Source: a virus. Taken from it: a stretch of DNA of 23,769 nt. Under the pieces are notes generated by a model. That model searched no databases. It was not told the origin of the DNA and saw nothing but the letters and a program-made list of their open reading frames with translations. Every line of letters begins with the position of its first letter. The first letter of the stretch is position 1. The translations under genes were made by a program, and so were the position numbers. Below are positions 3,478-20,114 of the stretch, in pieces. The stretch is from positions 1 through 23,769 of the IMG/VR virus record IMGVR_UViG_3300025102_000294, one strand, 5' to 3'.

Positions 3478-4418
3478 AAATTGTGGAACTAATAATTGAC
3501 GAGGAGGCCGAGGTGTTCGGTATCGAAGCCATCTCGCTCGTGGACCGTCCGGCCATCGAGTTGGACTTCGTGGCATTGAAAGACCAAAAGGTCACATTTG
3601 CCGAGGTCGACAACGACAAGCGCATCCTCATGGGGCCGGCTCTTGTCCCAGATAAACCCATCTACCGGAAGAACGCCGAGGGCGAGTTTTACGTGTACTT
3701 CTCGAAGGACACCGTTCGCCGTGCGGCCGAGCTATACCTTCAACAGGGACGCCAAACGGCCCACACCTTGGAGCACGAACACGCCATCAACGGGCTCACT
3801 GTGGTCGAGTCGTGGCTCGTGGAGGACAAGGCCAAGGACAAGTCGGCCATGTACGACCTCGACGTTCCCGTAGGTACATGGATGGTGGCCGTCAAAGTTG
3901 AGAACGAGGCCATTTGGCAAGACTGGGTCAAAGAGGGCAAGGTCAAAGGGTTCTCGATTGAGGGCTACTTCGCTGACAAGATGCAAAAGCAAGAGGAGGA
4001 GACGGCGATGGGCTACGACGTGGTCGACGCCGTGTTGAACGTGTTGGAGCTGGAGACGTATTCGGACTATCCCGACGCGGTGGTGAACAACGCCAAGCGC
4101 GGCATCGAGCTGAACGAGAAGGAAGGCAACAAATGCGCCACACAGACGGGCAAGGTGCGCGCTCAACAACTTGCCAAGCGCCAACCCTTGAGCCGCGAAA
4201 CGGTGCAACGTATGGCCTCCTATTTGGCCCGTGCTGAAGTGTACTACGACAACGGCGACCCGAGCGAGTGCGGGTACATCTCCTACCTCTTGTGGGGTGG
4301 TAAAGCGGGCAAGCGATGGGCCGACGCCAAGGTGCGGGAGTTCCAAACGCTGTCCGAGCTGGAGAAGGTAGCCGTGCAAATCATGGCACACAACGAAAAA
4401 AAATCAGGGGGCGCGTAA
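3474..4418 (+). CDS. Prohead maturation protease, XkdF-like (S78-type)
   Basis: The 314-residue protein matches the XkdF-like phage protease family. The N-terminus has the typical EAISLVDRPAIELDFVAL. The core runs from RILMGPALVPDKPIYR (about residue 50) to GFSIEGYF (about 159-166). The likely catalytic histidine is in TLEHEHAI (101-103) and the nucleophile is Ser161 in GFSIEG. This enzyme cleaves scaffold and capsid proteins during head maturation. A C-terminal domain (about 220-310) contains RAQQLAKRQPLSRETVQRMA and ISYLLWGGKAGKRW, which I associate with head proteins of Bacteroidota phages. It lies directly before the scaffold and capsid genes. The start overlaps the tape-measure stop (ATGA). 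Confidence 0.85.
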   Translation: MKIVELIIDEEAEVFGIEAISLVDRPAIELDFVALKDQKVTFAEVDNDKRILMGPALVPDKPIYRKNAEGEFYVYFSKDTVRRAAELYLQQGRQTAHTLEHEHAINGLTVVESWLVEDKAKDKSAMYDLDVPVGTWMVAVKVENEAIWQDWVKEGKVKGFSIEGYFADKMQKQEEETAMGYDVVDAVLNVLELETYSDYPDAVVNNAKRGIELNEKEGNKCATQTGKVRAQQLAKRQPLSRETVQRMASYLARAEVYYDNGDPSECGYISYLLWGGKAGKRWADAKVREFQTLSELEKVAVQIMAHNEKKSGGA

Positions 4419-6260: not shown

Positions 6261-6803
6261 ATGGCTTGTAGCCTTACAATTACAGGACGGTCTTTACCTT
6301 GCCGCGACGCCCTCGGAGGTGTGAAAAAGGTTTGGTTTGGGGCGGCATTATTCACCGACGGGATTTGGACCGCAGTAGGCGCAACAACACCCGGTGAAAT
6401 TGACAACTCTACCGCCGGGGTTGCGTTGCAGGACTTCGTGAGCCCTAAGAACACGTCAAGCCTCACGCAAACCGTCAACGCATCAGTCGAGAACGGGACT
6501 GTCTTCTACTCGCAGGTGCTTTCATTGGTTTGCAACAAGCCGGTGGCGGCTGACATTGTAGAGATTCAAAACCTCGCCAAGGGCCGCCTCATCATCGTCG
6601 TGCAAGACCTCAATGACAACTACTTCGTCATGGGCCACACGCGCGGCTGTGAATTGACCGGAGGAAGCCTCGCGACAGGTACCGCCATCGGCGACCTGAA
6701 CGGGTTCACCTTGGAGTTCACAGCGGAGGAGGGCATTCCTGCACCGTTCTTGGATAAGACAAGCGCCGAAGCCGGAAGCGTCACCTTCAACGTGACACCG
6801 TAA
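6261..6803 (+). CDS. Major tail (tube) protein
   Basis: The 180-residue product begins MACSLTITGRSLPCRDALGG and has a C-terminal part reading GCELTGGSLATGTAIGDLNG and then FTLEFTAEEGIPAPFL. This glycine-rich ELTGG..GDLNG pattern is one I associate with tail-tube proteins of Bacteroidota siphophages. Size (about 20 kDa) and predicted beta content fit a tube subunit. It is a stand-alone cistron flanked on both sides by GC-rich hairpins, consistent with high and separately tuned expression. Start at ATG 6261, 63 bp after the capsid stop. Function is likely rather than certain; a minor capsid or decoration protein is the alternative. Confidence 0.65.
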   Translation: MACSLTITGRSLPCRDALGGVKKVWFGAALFTDGIWTAVGATTPGEIDNSTAGVALQDFVSPKNTSSLTQTVNASVENGTVFYSQVLSLVCNKPVAADIVEIQNLAKGRLIIVVQDLNDNYFVMGHTRGCELTGGSLATGTAIGDLNGFTLEFTAEEGIPAPFLDKTSAEAGSVTFNVTP

Positions 6804-9817: not shown

Positions 9818-10174
9818 ATGTACAAATATTTCAAGCTCGAAGAGTTCGACAGCCCCGACGAACCGGGGTCAGGTGAAATGATGGAGCCGGCAGTCATTGA
9901 AGCGTTGGAGAACGCCCGTGACCTTGCCGGTTTTCCTTTTGTGGTGACGAGTGGGGTGCGGACAATCGCACACAACCGAGCCGTCGGAGGGTCGCCCCGG
10001 TCGAGCCACCTTTTGGGCCTTGCGGTCGACCTGCGTGTGGACAACAGCCAACGCCGCTACCTTATGGTTGAGGCATTGCTCGACGCTGGGTTCAATCGGC
10101 TGGGCATCGCGGAGGACTTCATCCACTGCGACATGGACGAAAACAAAATTCCCAACGTATTGTGGACATACTAA
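9818..10174 (+). CDS. Endolysin, M15-type zinc D,D-/L,D-peptidase
   Basis: The start is ATG 9818, 1 bp after the upstream stop, giving 118 residues. The sequence has the M15 (VanY/DacA-like, M15_3) fold signature: TSGVRT (44-49, with the substrate-binding Arg48), SSHLLGLAVD (62-71) with zinc ligands His64 and Asp71, and FIHCD (101-105) with the third ligand His103. Such enzymes cut peptide bonds in peptidoglycan stem peptides or crosslinks. No signal peptide or separate wall-binding domain is seen, so release through a holin is expected. The length is usual for single-domain M15 phage endolysins. The phosphoesterase start lies inside its last codons (13-bp overlap). Confidence 0.9.
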   Translation: MYKYFKLEEFDSPDEPGSGEMMEPAVIEALENARDLAGFPFVVTSGVRTIAHNRAVGGSPRSSHLLGLAVDLRVDNSQRRYLMVEALLDAGFNRLGIAEDFIHCDMDENKIPNVLWTY

Positions 10175-11007
10175 GAAAGAGCCGAACGGTTCACCACGTC
10201 GACCTCGACTTCAAAAAGCGAGGCACCGAGAAGAACTTCCTTTTCATATCGGACGTTCACTACGACAGCGTCAAATGCGACCGGTCACTTTTGCACCGCC
10301 ACCTTGAAGAGGCGCGACGCATCGGGGCCGGCGTTTTCATTTTTGGCGACCTGTTCGACCTTATGCAAGGGCGGTTTGACCCCCGGGGCAACTACTCCGA
10401 ACTGCGACCCGAATACAAGGCGTGTACCTACGTCGACGAAGTCATTCAAGACGTGGGCGAGAAGCTCGCAGAATACAAGGACGTCATCCGGTTCATTTCA
10501 AGGGGCAACCACGAGACCAACATCGAAAAGCGTATGATGGTGTCGCCCATCGACCGCGTGGCGCAAATTATCAACGCCGCAGGGGGTAGAGTGGAGACCG
10601 GGGGTTATGCGGGGTGGCTCGGGCTCACCTGCCACCGTGGCAAGAAAAGCGCCAAGCGTTTCCTCGTCCATTATCATCACGGGTACGGCGGCAACGCCAA
10701 ACGCTCGAAGGGTGTGCTAAACAACGACCTCGACCTTGCCCAGTTCCCCGACGCCGACTTTCTTGTCAGGGGCCACGACCACAACAAGTGGTATCACCCC
10801 GTCACCGTGGACCGCATCAACCAAAAAATGAAGCTCGAACAGCGCACGCGCTACCTCATGCGCCTCGGGTCTTACAAAAAGCTCGGGGACCGCTTTGCAG
10901 GGTGGGCCACCGAGAAGGGATTCAATACGCCAACCCTTGGGGGGTGGTGGGTGCGCCTAGTTGAAAACCGCGACGACTACCGCGTCGAAGTACGGGACGC
11001 TTCGTAG
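10162..11007 (+). CDS. Calcineurin-like metallophosphoesterase
   Basis: The 281-residue product carries all metallophosphoesterase motifs in order: D-x-H (ISDVHYD, Asp31 and His33), GD-x-x-D (FGDLFD, 62-66), GNHE (115-118), a His-rich element (VHYHHGYG, 169-176) and GHDH (204-207). These bind two metal ions and hydrolyse phosphomono- or phosphodiesters; the substrate cannot be read from the sequence. The GTG start at 10162 overlaps the endolysin by 13 bp. It is the last gene before the terminator at 11060, an odd place for a nucleic-acid enzyme. Roles in DNA processing, in degrading a signalling nucleotide, or in dephosphorylating host RNA or protein are all possible. Confidence 0.85.
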   Translation: MDILRKSRTVHHVDLDFKKRGTEKNFLFISDVHYDSVKCDRSLLHRHLEEARRIGAGVFIFGDLFDLMQGRFDPRGNYSELRPEYKACTYVDEVIQDVGEKLAEYKDVIRFISRGNHETNIEKRMMVSPIDRVAQIINAAGGRVETGGYAGWLGLTCHRGKKSAKRFLVHYHHGYGGNAKRSKGVLNNDLDLAQFPDADFLVRGHDHNKWYHPVTVDRINQKMKLEQRTRYLMRLGSYKKLGDRFAGWATEKGFNTPTLGGWWVRLVENRDDYRVEVRDAS

Positions 11008-11059
11008 TATATTAGCCTCGGCCATCAGGTGGTCGAATCATTTGTTTTTTCAGTCTAGG

Positions 11060-11091
11060 AGCCTCCGGAACGCCGGGGGCTTCTTTTTTTT
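11060..11091 (+). terminator. Strong intrinsic terminator ending the late genes
   Basis: AGCCTCCGG (11060-11068) pairs with CCGGGGGCT (11073-11081), including one T-G pair, around loop AACG, followed by a T-rich run to 11091 (eight consecutive T). It is separated from the phosphoesterase stop by about 50 bp of sequence in which I see no gene. It insulates the late unit from promoter P1. Confidence 0.9.
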
Positions 11092-11100
11092 GTGTCAAAA

Positions 11101-11137
11101 TTAGGAAACAAGGAAAGGCTGTCCTATCTTTGGGACA
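11101..11137 (+). promoter_or_regulatory. Promoter P1, Bacteroidota type, with palindromic operator
   Basis: The -7 box TATCTTTG (11125-11132) matches TAnnTTTG exactly. Twenty nt upstream is TTAG (11101-11104), a one-base departure from the TTTG box. The -7 box is exactly enclosed by TGTCC (11120-11124) and GGACA (11133-11137), a perfect 5-bp inverted repeat with an 8-nt spacer, which is a likely regulator site. The final A of the repeat is the A of the ATG at 11137. The whole region is homologous to promoter P2. It should drive the 11137-19773 operon. Confidence 0.75.
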
Positions 11138-11345: not shown

Positions 11346-11582
11346 ATGGCAAAGCCCACACACAAGACGAGGCTCCTTGACTACCTCAACCAACACGGAA
11401 CCATCACCTCGCTCGAGGCCATCCGCGACCTCGGCAACACGCGCCTCAGCGCAACCGTTTTCGACCTACGCCGCCAAGGCCACGAAATCGTCTCTCGCCC
11501 GGTGCGCGTCCCGAACCGCTGGGGCGGTGAGACGGAAGTCGCTCGGTATGTGTATCACCCAACAACCACCCCCAATGGATAA
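11346..11582 (+). CDS. Small helix-turn-helix DNA-binding protein
   Basis: The 78-residue product resembles the phage helix-turn-helix family HTH_39: KTRLLDYLNQHGTITSLEAI followed by RDLGNTRLSATVFDLRRQG (about residues 7-45), with the wing-like HEIVSRPVRVPNRWGGETEV and an aromatic C-terminus (ARYVYHPTT). Proteins of this type are common in phages and mobile elements and probably bind DNA as small regulators. It is the second gene after promoter P1, so it is a candidate for binding the palindromes at P1 and P2, though nothing in the sequence proves this. ATG 11346 is 11 bp after the upstream stop; its stop overlaps the next start by 8 bp. Confidence 0.75.
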   Translation: MAKPTHKTRLLDYLNQHGTITSLEAIRDLGNTRLSATVFDLRRQGHEIVSRPVRVPNRWGGETEVARYVYHPTTTPNG

Positions 11583-12694: not shown

Positions 12695-12930
12695 GTGGCT
12701 GGGACTTCCGATGGAGTGAAGGGCGCCCGGGAAAGCCGGGCGTCTACCTCCTGTGCTGGATGAGCCCGAACGACGACAAGTGGCCGACCGCTTACGAGAT
12801 ACACGAATGGAACGGGACGCACTGGGTAACCTTCAGACCCAACCAAGTCCTCCCAACACACTGGCAGAAAATCACGAGCCCTGCCCTCGACATTTTAGAA
12901 ATGAAGGAATACGAAAACGCTACAACATGA
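12691..12930 (+). CDS. 79-residue DUF551-like protein
   Basis: The GTG start at 12691 overlaps the upstream TGA (GTGA). The product has the pattern PGKPGVYLLCWMSPNDDKWP, then AYEIHEWNGTHWVTF and LPTHWQKI. This recalls the DUF551 family (a 'price-tag' arrangement of a value-entry segment and a closing THWMPLP-like motif), which is common in phages and of unknown function. The final residues (ALDILEMKEYENATT) are a short helix. Its TGA overlaps the next ATG. Family assignment is moderate; a role is not known. Confidence 0.6.
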   Translation: MSGWDFRWSEGRPGKPGVYLLCWMSPNDDKWPTAYEIHEWNGTHWVTFRPNQVLPTHWQKITSPALDILEMKEYENATT

Positions 12931-13178
12931 AAAAGCACAACGCCCGATGGACCGAAGCCGACGAAAGACAAATGCTTCACCTCCACGCTCAACACAAGAG
13001 CCCCGACGAAATGTCCAATGTCATGGGACGAACTCCCAAGGCCATCGCCCTACGTCTAACCCAAAAGCGCCTCAAGCCGTACCGCGCACCAAAAGCGTCC
13101 AAGTACACTAAGTACACCAACGTCCCGCGCAAGACGGTGAAGTGGTTTTGGGGGGCCCTTGAAATCACGAAGTTTTAA
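12927..13178 (+). CDS. Myb/SANT-like DNA-binding protein
   Basis: The start is ATG 12927, overlapping the upstream TGA; longer in-frame starts would run through the previous gene. The 83-residue product has a Myb/SANT-like helix-turn-helix: ARWTEADERQMLHLHAQHKS, then DEMSNVMGRTPKAIALRLTQ (residues 6-46). The Trp8, the GRTPKAI turn and the following basic helix fit DNA recognition. The C-terminal half is strongly basic (KPYRAPKASKYTKYTNVPRK), which could add non-specific DNA binding. A regulatory or replication-accessory role is inferred. Confidence 0.75.
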   Translation: MKKHNARWTEADERQMLHLHAQHKSPDEMSNVMGRTPKAIALRLTQKRLKPYRAPKASKYTKYTNVPRKTVKWFWGALEITKF

Positions 13179-13181
13179 GCC

Positions 13182-13364
13182 ATGAAAACCTTTGAGGATT
13201 GCCTTGAGTGTGGTAAGATTGGCACCATGACCGTGGAACGAGTCATTGGCCACACGGTTGGAGGTAGTGCCATTCAACAACAGGAATACCACTGCGACAA
13301 ATGCGACAGCGATTGGAGCGTGTGGTTGGAACAAGTAGCAATTTCACGAACAATGACATCATGA
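13182..13364 (+). CDS. 60-residue zinc-ribbon protein
   Basis: Two CxxC pairs are visible: C7-x2-C10 (CLECG) and C38-x2-C41 (CDKCD), separated by a beta-like segment (TMTVERVIGHTVGG). This is the usual layout of a zinc ribbon. Such tiny proteins often act as transcription or nuclease cofactors; no more can be said. ATG 13182 is 3 bp after the upstream stop and the TGA overlaps the next gene's ATG at 13361. Confidence 0.65.
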   Translation: MKTFEDCLECGKIGTMTVERVIGHTVGGSAIQQQEYHCDKCDSDWSVWLEQVAISRTMTS

Positions 13365-13579
13365 AGGAATACATCTGCAAACACTACGGGAGCCTTGACA
13401 AGTGCGCCGAGGAGCTCAACGTCGGTCGGTCGACCGTGTACCGTTGGGTCCAAAGCAACCCCCGGGGAATCTTGCTCCACGCGCCCGAGATTCTACGCGA
13501 CAAGGACACGACGTCCTTGGAGCTTGTGTCGGAGGTCGTACACCGTGAGGGCCAGCTCACAAAAGCCGAGGACGCATGA
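13361..13579 (+). CDS. Small helix-turn-helix regulator
   Basis: ATG 13361 overlaps the preceding TGA (ATGA), giving 72 residues; a longer start at 13301 would overlap the zinc-ribbon gene heavily. Residues 9-31 (YGSLDKCAEELNVGRSTVYR) form a clear helix-turn-helix: the alanine and glycine in the turn and the RSTVYRW recognition helix resemble Cro/C1-type or resolvase-type DNA binders. The rest is acidic and helical (PEILRDKDTTSLELVSEVVH), which could be a dimerisation part. It is another candidate for the operator seen at the two promoters. Its TGA overlaps the next ATG. Confidence 0.7.
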   Translation: MKEYICKHYGSLDKCAEELNVGRSTVYRWVQSNPRGILLHAPEILRDKDTTSLELVSEVVHREGQLTKAEDA

Positions 13580-19773: not shown

Positions 19774-19780
19774 AAAAAAG

Positions 19781-19827
19781 TGTCCTAAAATTTGGACAGA
19801 GGGGAAACTTGTCTTATCTTTGGGACA
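19781..19827 (+). promoter_or_regulatory. Promoter P2, Bacteroidota type, with two palindromic operators
   Basis: TTTG (19791-19794) and TATCTTTG (19815-19822) are separated by exactly 20 nt, which matches the Bacteroidota sigma-factor consensus. The -33 box is covered by TGTCC-N8-GGACA (19781-19798). The -7 box is enclosed by TGTCT-N8-GGACA (19810-19827), one base off the perfect repeat seen at P1. The two palindromes start 29 bp apart. The last A of the second repeat is the A of the ATG at 19827. Confidence 0.85.
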
Positions 19828-20027
19828 TGGAAAACAACAACACAACCACCGCCGGGGAGACCATGACCTTCGAGTACACCTATTACAACAGGATTGACCG
19901 AGACGACTGGAGCAAGGGCACCATCCAAGCACTCACCAAGGAAGGTGCAATCAATCGCATCAACAGAAAGCTACACCTCACAGGAATGAACCTCAAGCGT
20001 AGCAGTGTCAAACTTGTGAAGCCATGA
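19827..20027 (+). CDS. 66-residue protein in its own transcription unit
   Basis: The start is ATG 19827, 4 nt after the -7 box of P2; upstream in-frame codons are a shadow of terL. The mRNA would be leaderless, or translation might begin at a second in-frame ATG at 19863, after an A/C-rich stretch. The mature-looking part begins MTFEYTYYNRIDRDDWSKGT, with IQALTKEGAINRINRKLHL and a basic end (KRSSVKLVKP). A small alpha/beta protein with a positive C-terminus is suggested; no family is recognised. The promoter is homologous to that of the early operon, and a terminator follows, so it is expressed in parallel with the early genes but alone. A regulatory role is plausible, not shown. Confidence 0.7.
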   Translation: MENNNTTTAGETMTFEYTYYNRIDRDDWSKGTIQALTKEGAINRINRKLHLTGMNLKRSSVKLVKP

Positions 20028-20046
20028 ACCGACCCACACCCAATAC

Positions 20047-20071
20047 AAGAGCCTCCGGGCTCTTTTTTTTT
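20047..20071 (+). terminator. Intrinsic terminator after the P2 gene
   Basis: AAGAGCC (20047-20053) pairs perfectly with GGCTCTT (20058-20064) around loop TCCG, followed by a run of nine T (20063-20071). It shares GAGCCTCCGG with the terminator at 11060. It separates the P2 unit from the tail genes that begin at 20115, so those need their own promoter or antitermination. Confidence 0.9.
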
Positions 20072-20114
20072 GCCTTAACTTTCAGAGCGTAAGCAAACCA
20101 CGAAACCGCGTCTT

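Follow-up and report, generated by a model that had tools for sequence, protein, structure and literature searches.

A palindrome around the −7 box of two phage promoters and a Cro-like protein as its candidate repressor

Introduction

The Cro lytic repressors of lambdoid and telomere phages, such as P22, N15, and PY54, are small all-helical helix-turn-helix (HTH) proteins of the early operon, and Cro/OR operators are palindromic sites of 14–18 bp that overlap a promoter. For PY54 Cro, the site is a palindrome of 16 bp (PMC4488713), and the recognition helices of Cro proteins change with the operator (Hall et al., 2005, as cited in PMC4488713). In Bacteroidota, σABfr promoters are composed of TTTG and TAnnTTTG boxes, and in Flavobacterium johnsoniae the −7 element extends from −12 to −5 and is separated from the start by 4 or 5 nt (PMC6847099). 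Leaderless mRNAs are rare in this phylum; 3.7% of 5′ UTRs are shorter than 10 nt in Bacteroides thetaiotaomicron (PMC7366714), and 5.5% of mRNAs are leaderless in Flavobacterium psychrophilum (PMC9723704). Phage morons are small cassettes with their own promoter and terminator.

The literature that we searched contains hardly any description of transcriptional repressors or operators from Bacteroidota phages. A search on Bacteroidetes phage repressor, operator, and immunity returned nothing, and a full-text search for TAnnTTTG together with phage and operator returned only translation-related work.

Here, we analyzed a linear viral fragment of 23,769 bp (hereafter, the window) carrying two promoters, P1 and P2, whose −7 boxes are enclosed in inverted repeats. 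The locus resembles Cro systems in that a small all-helical HTH protein (gene 13361, named by its first position) is encoded in the early operon, the putative operator is a palindrome overlapping the promoter, and the recognition helix changes with the putative operator in close relatives. It differs from them in that the promoter is of the Bacteroidota type, the −7 box itself forms the spacer of the palindrome, and the site reaches the predicted leaderless +1. Moreover, no divergent cI-like gene was found in the window (none beside P1), no phage integrase was found in ten related records, which are possibly fragments, and the 13361 product scores below the Pfam P22_Cro (PF14549) cut-off (18.6 vs 30.2 bits).

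Architecture of the promoters P1 and P2

The features of P1 are as follows.

11057..11091, + strand: intrinsic-terminator-like hairpin with a 12-pair stem and T run, ending the upstream transcription unit
11101..11104, + strand: weak −33 element TTAG of P1, 20 nt before the −7 box, recognized from the sequence
11120..11137, + strand: predicted operator TGTCC-N8-GGACA of P1, predicted to span −17 to +1; flanks covary
11125..11132, + strand: −7 box TATCTTTG of P1, fitting TAHHTTTG (consensus from PMC6847099)
11137..11334, + strand: 65-aa gene at the head of the P1 operon; mRNA predicted to be leaderless (+1 assigned to the A of ATG from the 4-nt spacing, PMC6847099)

The 18-mer TGTCCTATCTTTGGGACA at 11120–11137 reads TGTCC-TATCTTTG-GGACA, such that its 8-nt spacer (11125–11132) is the −7 box and its final base, A 11137, opens the ATG start codon of the 65-aa ORF, exactly as the first-pass annotation had described. 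P1 begins directly after the terminator at 11057–11091, which is nearly identical in relatives with a different P1. The repeat surrounding the −33 region of P1 is degenerate (TGTCAAAATTAGGAAA), and the L031/L248 phage (related contigs bear L numbers) carries TTTG at the position of TTAG in the window. The 65-aa product had no Pfam or PHROG match, and its homologues were found in 14 family loci.

At P2, 8690 bp from P1, the arrangement recurs and contains an additional palindrome.

19781..19798, + strand: upstream predicted operator TGTCC-N8-GGACA of P2, enclosing the −33 TTTG at 19791–19794
19810..19827, + strand: downstream predicted operator TGTCT-N8-GGACA of P2, enclosing the −7 box TATCTTTG at 19815–19822
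19827..20027, + strand: P2 cassette ORF, 66 aa, predicted leaderless
20047..20072, + strand: terminator-like hairpin with T run, closing the P2 cassette

The palindrome TGTCTTATCTTTGGGACA at 19810–19827 (TGTCT-TATCTTTG-GGACA) bears out the recurrence 8.7 kb away that had been noted earlier; its innermost arm pair is T/G, leaving Watson–Crick pairs at four of five positions. The perfect copy TGTCCTAAAATTTGGACA at 19781–19798 (TGTCC-TAAAATTT-GGACA) was absent from the first-pass annotation. Thus, both boxes of P2 are palindrome-enclosed, with a centre-to-centre distance of 29 bp.

The sequence TATCTTTG at 11125 and 19815 matches the −7 box TAnnTTTG (TAHHTTTG) of σABfr promoters, and the −33 TTTG is present at P2; P2 therefore fits both boxes and P1 the −7 box. 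The 4-nt distance between box and start at both promoters also fits F. johnsoniae (PMC6847099). Applied to P1 and P2, this spacing would place +1 on the A of the start codon, so that both mRNAs are predicted to be leaderless and the palindrome to extend from −17 to +1. These promoters differ from described σABfr promoters in that their boxes sit inside an inverted repeat and that the start is predicted on AUG, a configuration found in approximately 4–5% of mRNAs in B. thetaiotaomicron and F. psychrophilum. Because a start at 11137 would leave all but the final base of the repeat untranscribed, an RNA hairpin or attenuator was rejected.

An ATG exactly 4 nt past the −7 box was found in 22 of 32 strict family promoters (e.g., L014, L067, L074, and L261–L316), compared with 7 of 84 other viral promoters picked regardless of ATG. 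From this spacing, leaderless phage mRNAs are predicted in large number, within a phylum in which such mRNAs are rare. The P1 promoters of L259, L292, L298, L301, L303, and L317 have a TAnnTTGC box instead of TAnnTTTG, which resembles the F. psychrophilum motif SM5 (PMC9723704) and possibly reflects a different sigma factor.

The P2 cassette, comprising promoter, 66-aa ORF, and terminator, is located after the terminase gene and before the next one; it is missing from the near-identical phages L030, L031, L035, L037, L038, and L085. Its product had no family match and no homologue among the fetched family loci. In its composition and its absence from near-identical phages, the cassette resembles morons; it differs in that its promoter bears the predicted operators of the early operon, by which it would share the control of P1 and appears tied to phage control instead of being independent.

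Frequency of the palindrome

Exact TGTCY-N8-GGACA yielded five strand-counted matches (three sites) in the window, compared with 0.07 ± 0.33 in shuffled sequences, and near copies of the 18-mer (≤3 mismatches) numbered two against 0.04 expected. TAnnTTTG alone occurred at chance (7 vs 7.1). The search for the palindrome away from promoters, proposed along with the initial description, returned no exact copy in the window outside P1 and P2, and the single-mismatch copies at 3694, 9241, 17872, and 22330 all lie within coding sequence; the frequent occurrence away from promoters that was to count as a refutation was thus not seen. In the whole collection, TGTCYTANNTTTGGGACA was found in 26 contigs; their context suggested chance for almost every one, and the arrangement was clear only in the family member L014.

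A perfect palindrome with 5-bp arms resembling the type B operator described below, TTGTAGCCTTACAA, lies at 6266–6279 of the window, just inside the start of ORF 6261. It is kept in several relatives and may simply be conserved coding sequence.

Flank covariation among related phages

We collected approximately 160 related viral contigs using the terminase and the 10162–11007 protein as queries. The nearest phage records, with terminases only approximately 40% identical, come from Phocaeicola and Bacteroides, consistent with a Bacteroidota host. A comparison of the terminase with genome contigs gave only five distant matches (36–48%), including a Chitinophagaceae MAG and Bacteroides salyersiae.

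Next, we examined complementarity between the flanks of the −7 box in 46 distinct family promoters by shuffling left and right flanks between promoters. The observed complementarity was 2.74, compared with 2.17 ± 0.11 in permuted sets, and was reached in 0 of 2000 permutations; shifted registers showed no comparable excess, the +3 register reaching p 0.02 in the full set only. When similar promoters were grouped into 17 clusters, the covariation persisted (p 0.003), as it did within the close clade taken by itself (p 0.001) and in the rest of the family (p 0.002); its significance was lost under coarser clustering (≤7 clusters). By permutation, pairs 1–3 of the arms covary in the observed register only. 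Compensated arms were found in L036 (TGCC/GGCA) and in the L033/L244 phage (TTGTA/TACAA at P1 and CTGTA/TACAG at P2), and in this latter sister phage a palindrome with an unrelated sequence occupies the corresponding position at both P1 and P2. In addition, exact TGTCY-N8-GGACA with differing spacers surrounds the −33 box at P2 of the window, at three L036 promoters, and at one L119 promoter.

Each arm alone is common, with GNCATG following and TGTC preceding TAnnTTTG boxes in many promoters of unrelated viral contigs. For this reason, the evidence for an operator lies in the covariation, the compensations, and the −33 copies and not in the arms themselves, and part of the symmetry could arise from separate constraints on each arm. 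One alternative dispenses with a regulator: GGAC plus ATG would be favoured by leaderless initiation and TGTC by promoter strength, their complementarity being coincidental. The many family phages in which GGACATG is retained although the left flank, for example GAGTTG, cannot pair with it agree with such a by-product, as does the marginal excess of complementarity outside the family, where 98 viral leaderless promoters (mostly non-family) barely exceeded permutation (p 0.05). Against it stand the covariation of pairs 1–3 in one register only, the unrelated palindrome retained by L033 at both P1 and P2, and the same arms at the −33 boxes of P2 and four promoters of relatives, where there is no start codon to explain them. 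We regard a coincidental origin as quite improbable. When TGTC was fixed on the left, GACA occurred on the right in only 3 of 86 viral promoters; given this count and the marginal excess above, the palindrome as a general Bacteroidota promoter feature was unsupported. Selection on the palindrome at the DNA level is probable, and we hold this with greater confidence than the identity of the repressor proposed below.

Covariation of the 13361 recognition helix with the putative operator

Three genes of the early operon had been suggested as regulators.

11346..11582, + strand: HTH_39 winged-helix protein (Pfam E 2e-15), regulator candidate without support
12927..13178, + strand: Myb-like HTH protein (weak Pfam match), regulator candidate without support
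13361..13579, + strand: Cro-like HTH protein, 72 aa, best candidate regulator; recognition helix at residues 23–31, RSTVYRWVQ

To track the operator, we compared eight phages with 94–100% identical 10162 proteins, which fell into three P1 types, type B being a single phage.

Type A: left arm TGTCC; window, L249, L248, and L251; 13361 helix VGRSTVYRW
Type B: TTGTACATTTACAA; L244; 13361 helix VTPVTVRNW
Type C: CCCATATTAG, without ATG at +1; L242, L243, and L245; 13361 helix VTVVTVRNW

Type A phages share the left arm but differ in the right one (GGACA, GGATA, and ACACA). Of 22 genes tested, 13361 best separated the P1 types (within-minus-between identity, 0.241; p 0.007), followed by a runner-up at 0.118; the scores were 0.079 for 11137, 0.001 for 12281, and −0.046 for the Myb-like 12927. 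Residues 21–32 of the 13361 product were the most conserved segment relative to L251, which has the same operator (92% amino acid identity), and the least conserved relative to L244, which has a different operator (42%), whereas residues 43–52 were 100% identical to those of L244. At the DNA level, the terminator region upstream of P1 is nearly identical between the window and L244, and divergence begins at the promoter.

The proposal of 13361 as a regulator was thus strengthened by a helix that tracks the operator, whereas the other two candidates named in the first-pass annotation do not track it and were rejected on that ground. The HTH_39 protein 11346 has a 92% identical counterpart in type B L244 and none in the other type A phages, and the Myb-like protein 12927 is 35% identical in L251 with the same operator and 90% identical in L243 with a different one. 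More generally, the earlier suggestion of a DNA-binding regulator acting on the palindrome is the best-supported reading, given the covariation, the sister palindrome, and the tracking by the 13361 helix.

The correspondence of helix and operator holds among these eight phages of the close clade and is loose in the wider family, for which promoter picking failed or was wrong at several loci (e.g., L265–L267). There, L303, L314, and L315 share a helix (VTEQTVGNWLRYN) but have different P1 flanks, and L315 carries TGTCC..GGACA with a different helix. These discordant pairs would be expected if the repeat were the operator of another protein, either a regulator of the host or one that the phage encodes beyond this fragment, with 13361 covarying by linkage. 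The window is a linear fragment, so genes are missing from it, and 13361 lies only 2.2 kb from P1, both of which speak for this alternative. However, genes nearer to P1 or beside 13361 track the operator less or not at all (11137, 12281, and 12927), the differences between the window and L244 cluster in the 13361 recognition helix, and the different palindromes of sister phages argue against a single host regulator. Another protein as the cognate regulator is accordingly judged unlikely.

As a separate observation, helix–promoter pairing is also hinted at by L090, where a type-C-like helix, VTTVTVRNW, accompanies a post-terminase promoter, GACACCCCATCTTAGCGTCATG, that has CACCCCAT.TTAG in common with the P1 of the type C phages L242/L243.

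Structural prediction of the 13361 product

Structural prediction from a 31-member alignment showed five helices (pLDDT 96), with helix 3 at residues 23–31. The best PDB profile match was P22 Cro (E 9e-4), a single-sequence search gave N15 Cro at E 0.05, and all 31 family members matched P22_Cro at E ≤ 0.01 (best, 1e-6). Structural alignment of the model gave Z scores of 4.3–5.7 to the Cro proteins of P22, N15, and Xfaso 1, with equally high scores for antitoxin-type HTH proteins, and a Foldseek search of the model against PDB returned no match at E ≤ 0.001. No relatives of the protein were found among genome contigs. The 13361 product is therefore Cro-like and no proven Cro. Its gene lies downstream of P1 on the same strand, with no terminator-like site reported between them on the + strand.

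Predicted regulation by the 13361 product

The repeat is probably the docking site of the 13361 product, because the recognition helix of this protein changes with the repeat in sister viruses. On these sequence comparisons, we consider it likely that 13361 encodes a repressor whose operators enclose the −7 boxes of P1 and P2 and additionally the −33 box of P2. P1 would fire early, and the 13361 protein produced from its operon would accumulate; a dimer would then cover −17 to +1, and at P2 the −33 site, 29 bp farther upstream, would be occupied as well. The bound protein would keep RNA polymerase off, shutting down the early genes together with the P2 cassette, and 13361 would thereby repress its own operon. 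Dimer binding, repression, and autoregulation are all predicted from sequence, repression being preferred over activation from the position of the site (−17 to +1, and over −33 at P2). The lack of an integrase in the ten related records, which may be incomplete, points to a shut-off of early genes more than to lysogeny.

The sites of activators normally lie beside the core promoter or upstream of it. A site covering +1 and the −7 box, which RNA polymerase needs for its own binding, is at odds with an activator or a polymerase-redirecting phage factor needed for P1 and P2 to fire, and the −33 box of P2 is good. The poor −33 element of P1 (TTAG) and the TAnnTTGC box of some family P1 promoters, like motif SM5 (PMC9723704), would suit such a factor, which we nonetheless consider very improbable.

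Beyond repression by 13361, we tentatively suggest, at somewhat less than even confidence, that uncultured Bacteroidota phages fuse operator, promoter core, and start codon in an element of approximately 18 bp, and that joint switches of helix and operator among sister phages generate immunity-like specificity groups without visible lysogeny genes. These data supply a named candidate regulator, a predicted 18-bp site, and a natural series of matched and mismatched regulator–operator pairs. Small synthetic DNAs would suffice to test the predictions, and regulated promoters for use in Bacteroidota genetics could result.

Variation at the post-terminase locus

The spot following the terminase gene (19774–20072 in the window and 1278–1900 in L036, and also examined in L119 and L032–L034) holds varying small promoter–ORF cassettes or none. 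The type B P2 of L032–L034 has a perfect inverted repeat in its −33 region, TTGCTTTC-G-GAAAGCAA, with a sequence unlike that of the −7 palindrome. In L036, three consecutive promoters occupy this spot, and TGTCY-N8-GGACA lies over the −33 box of each.
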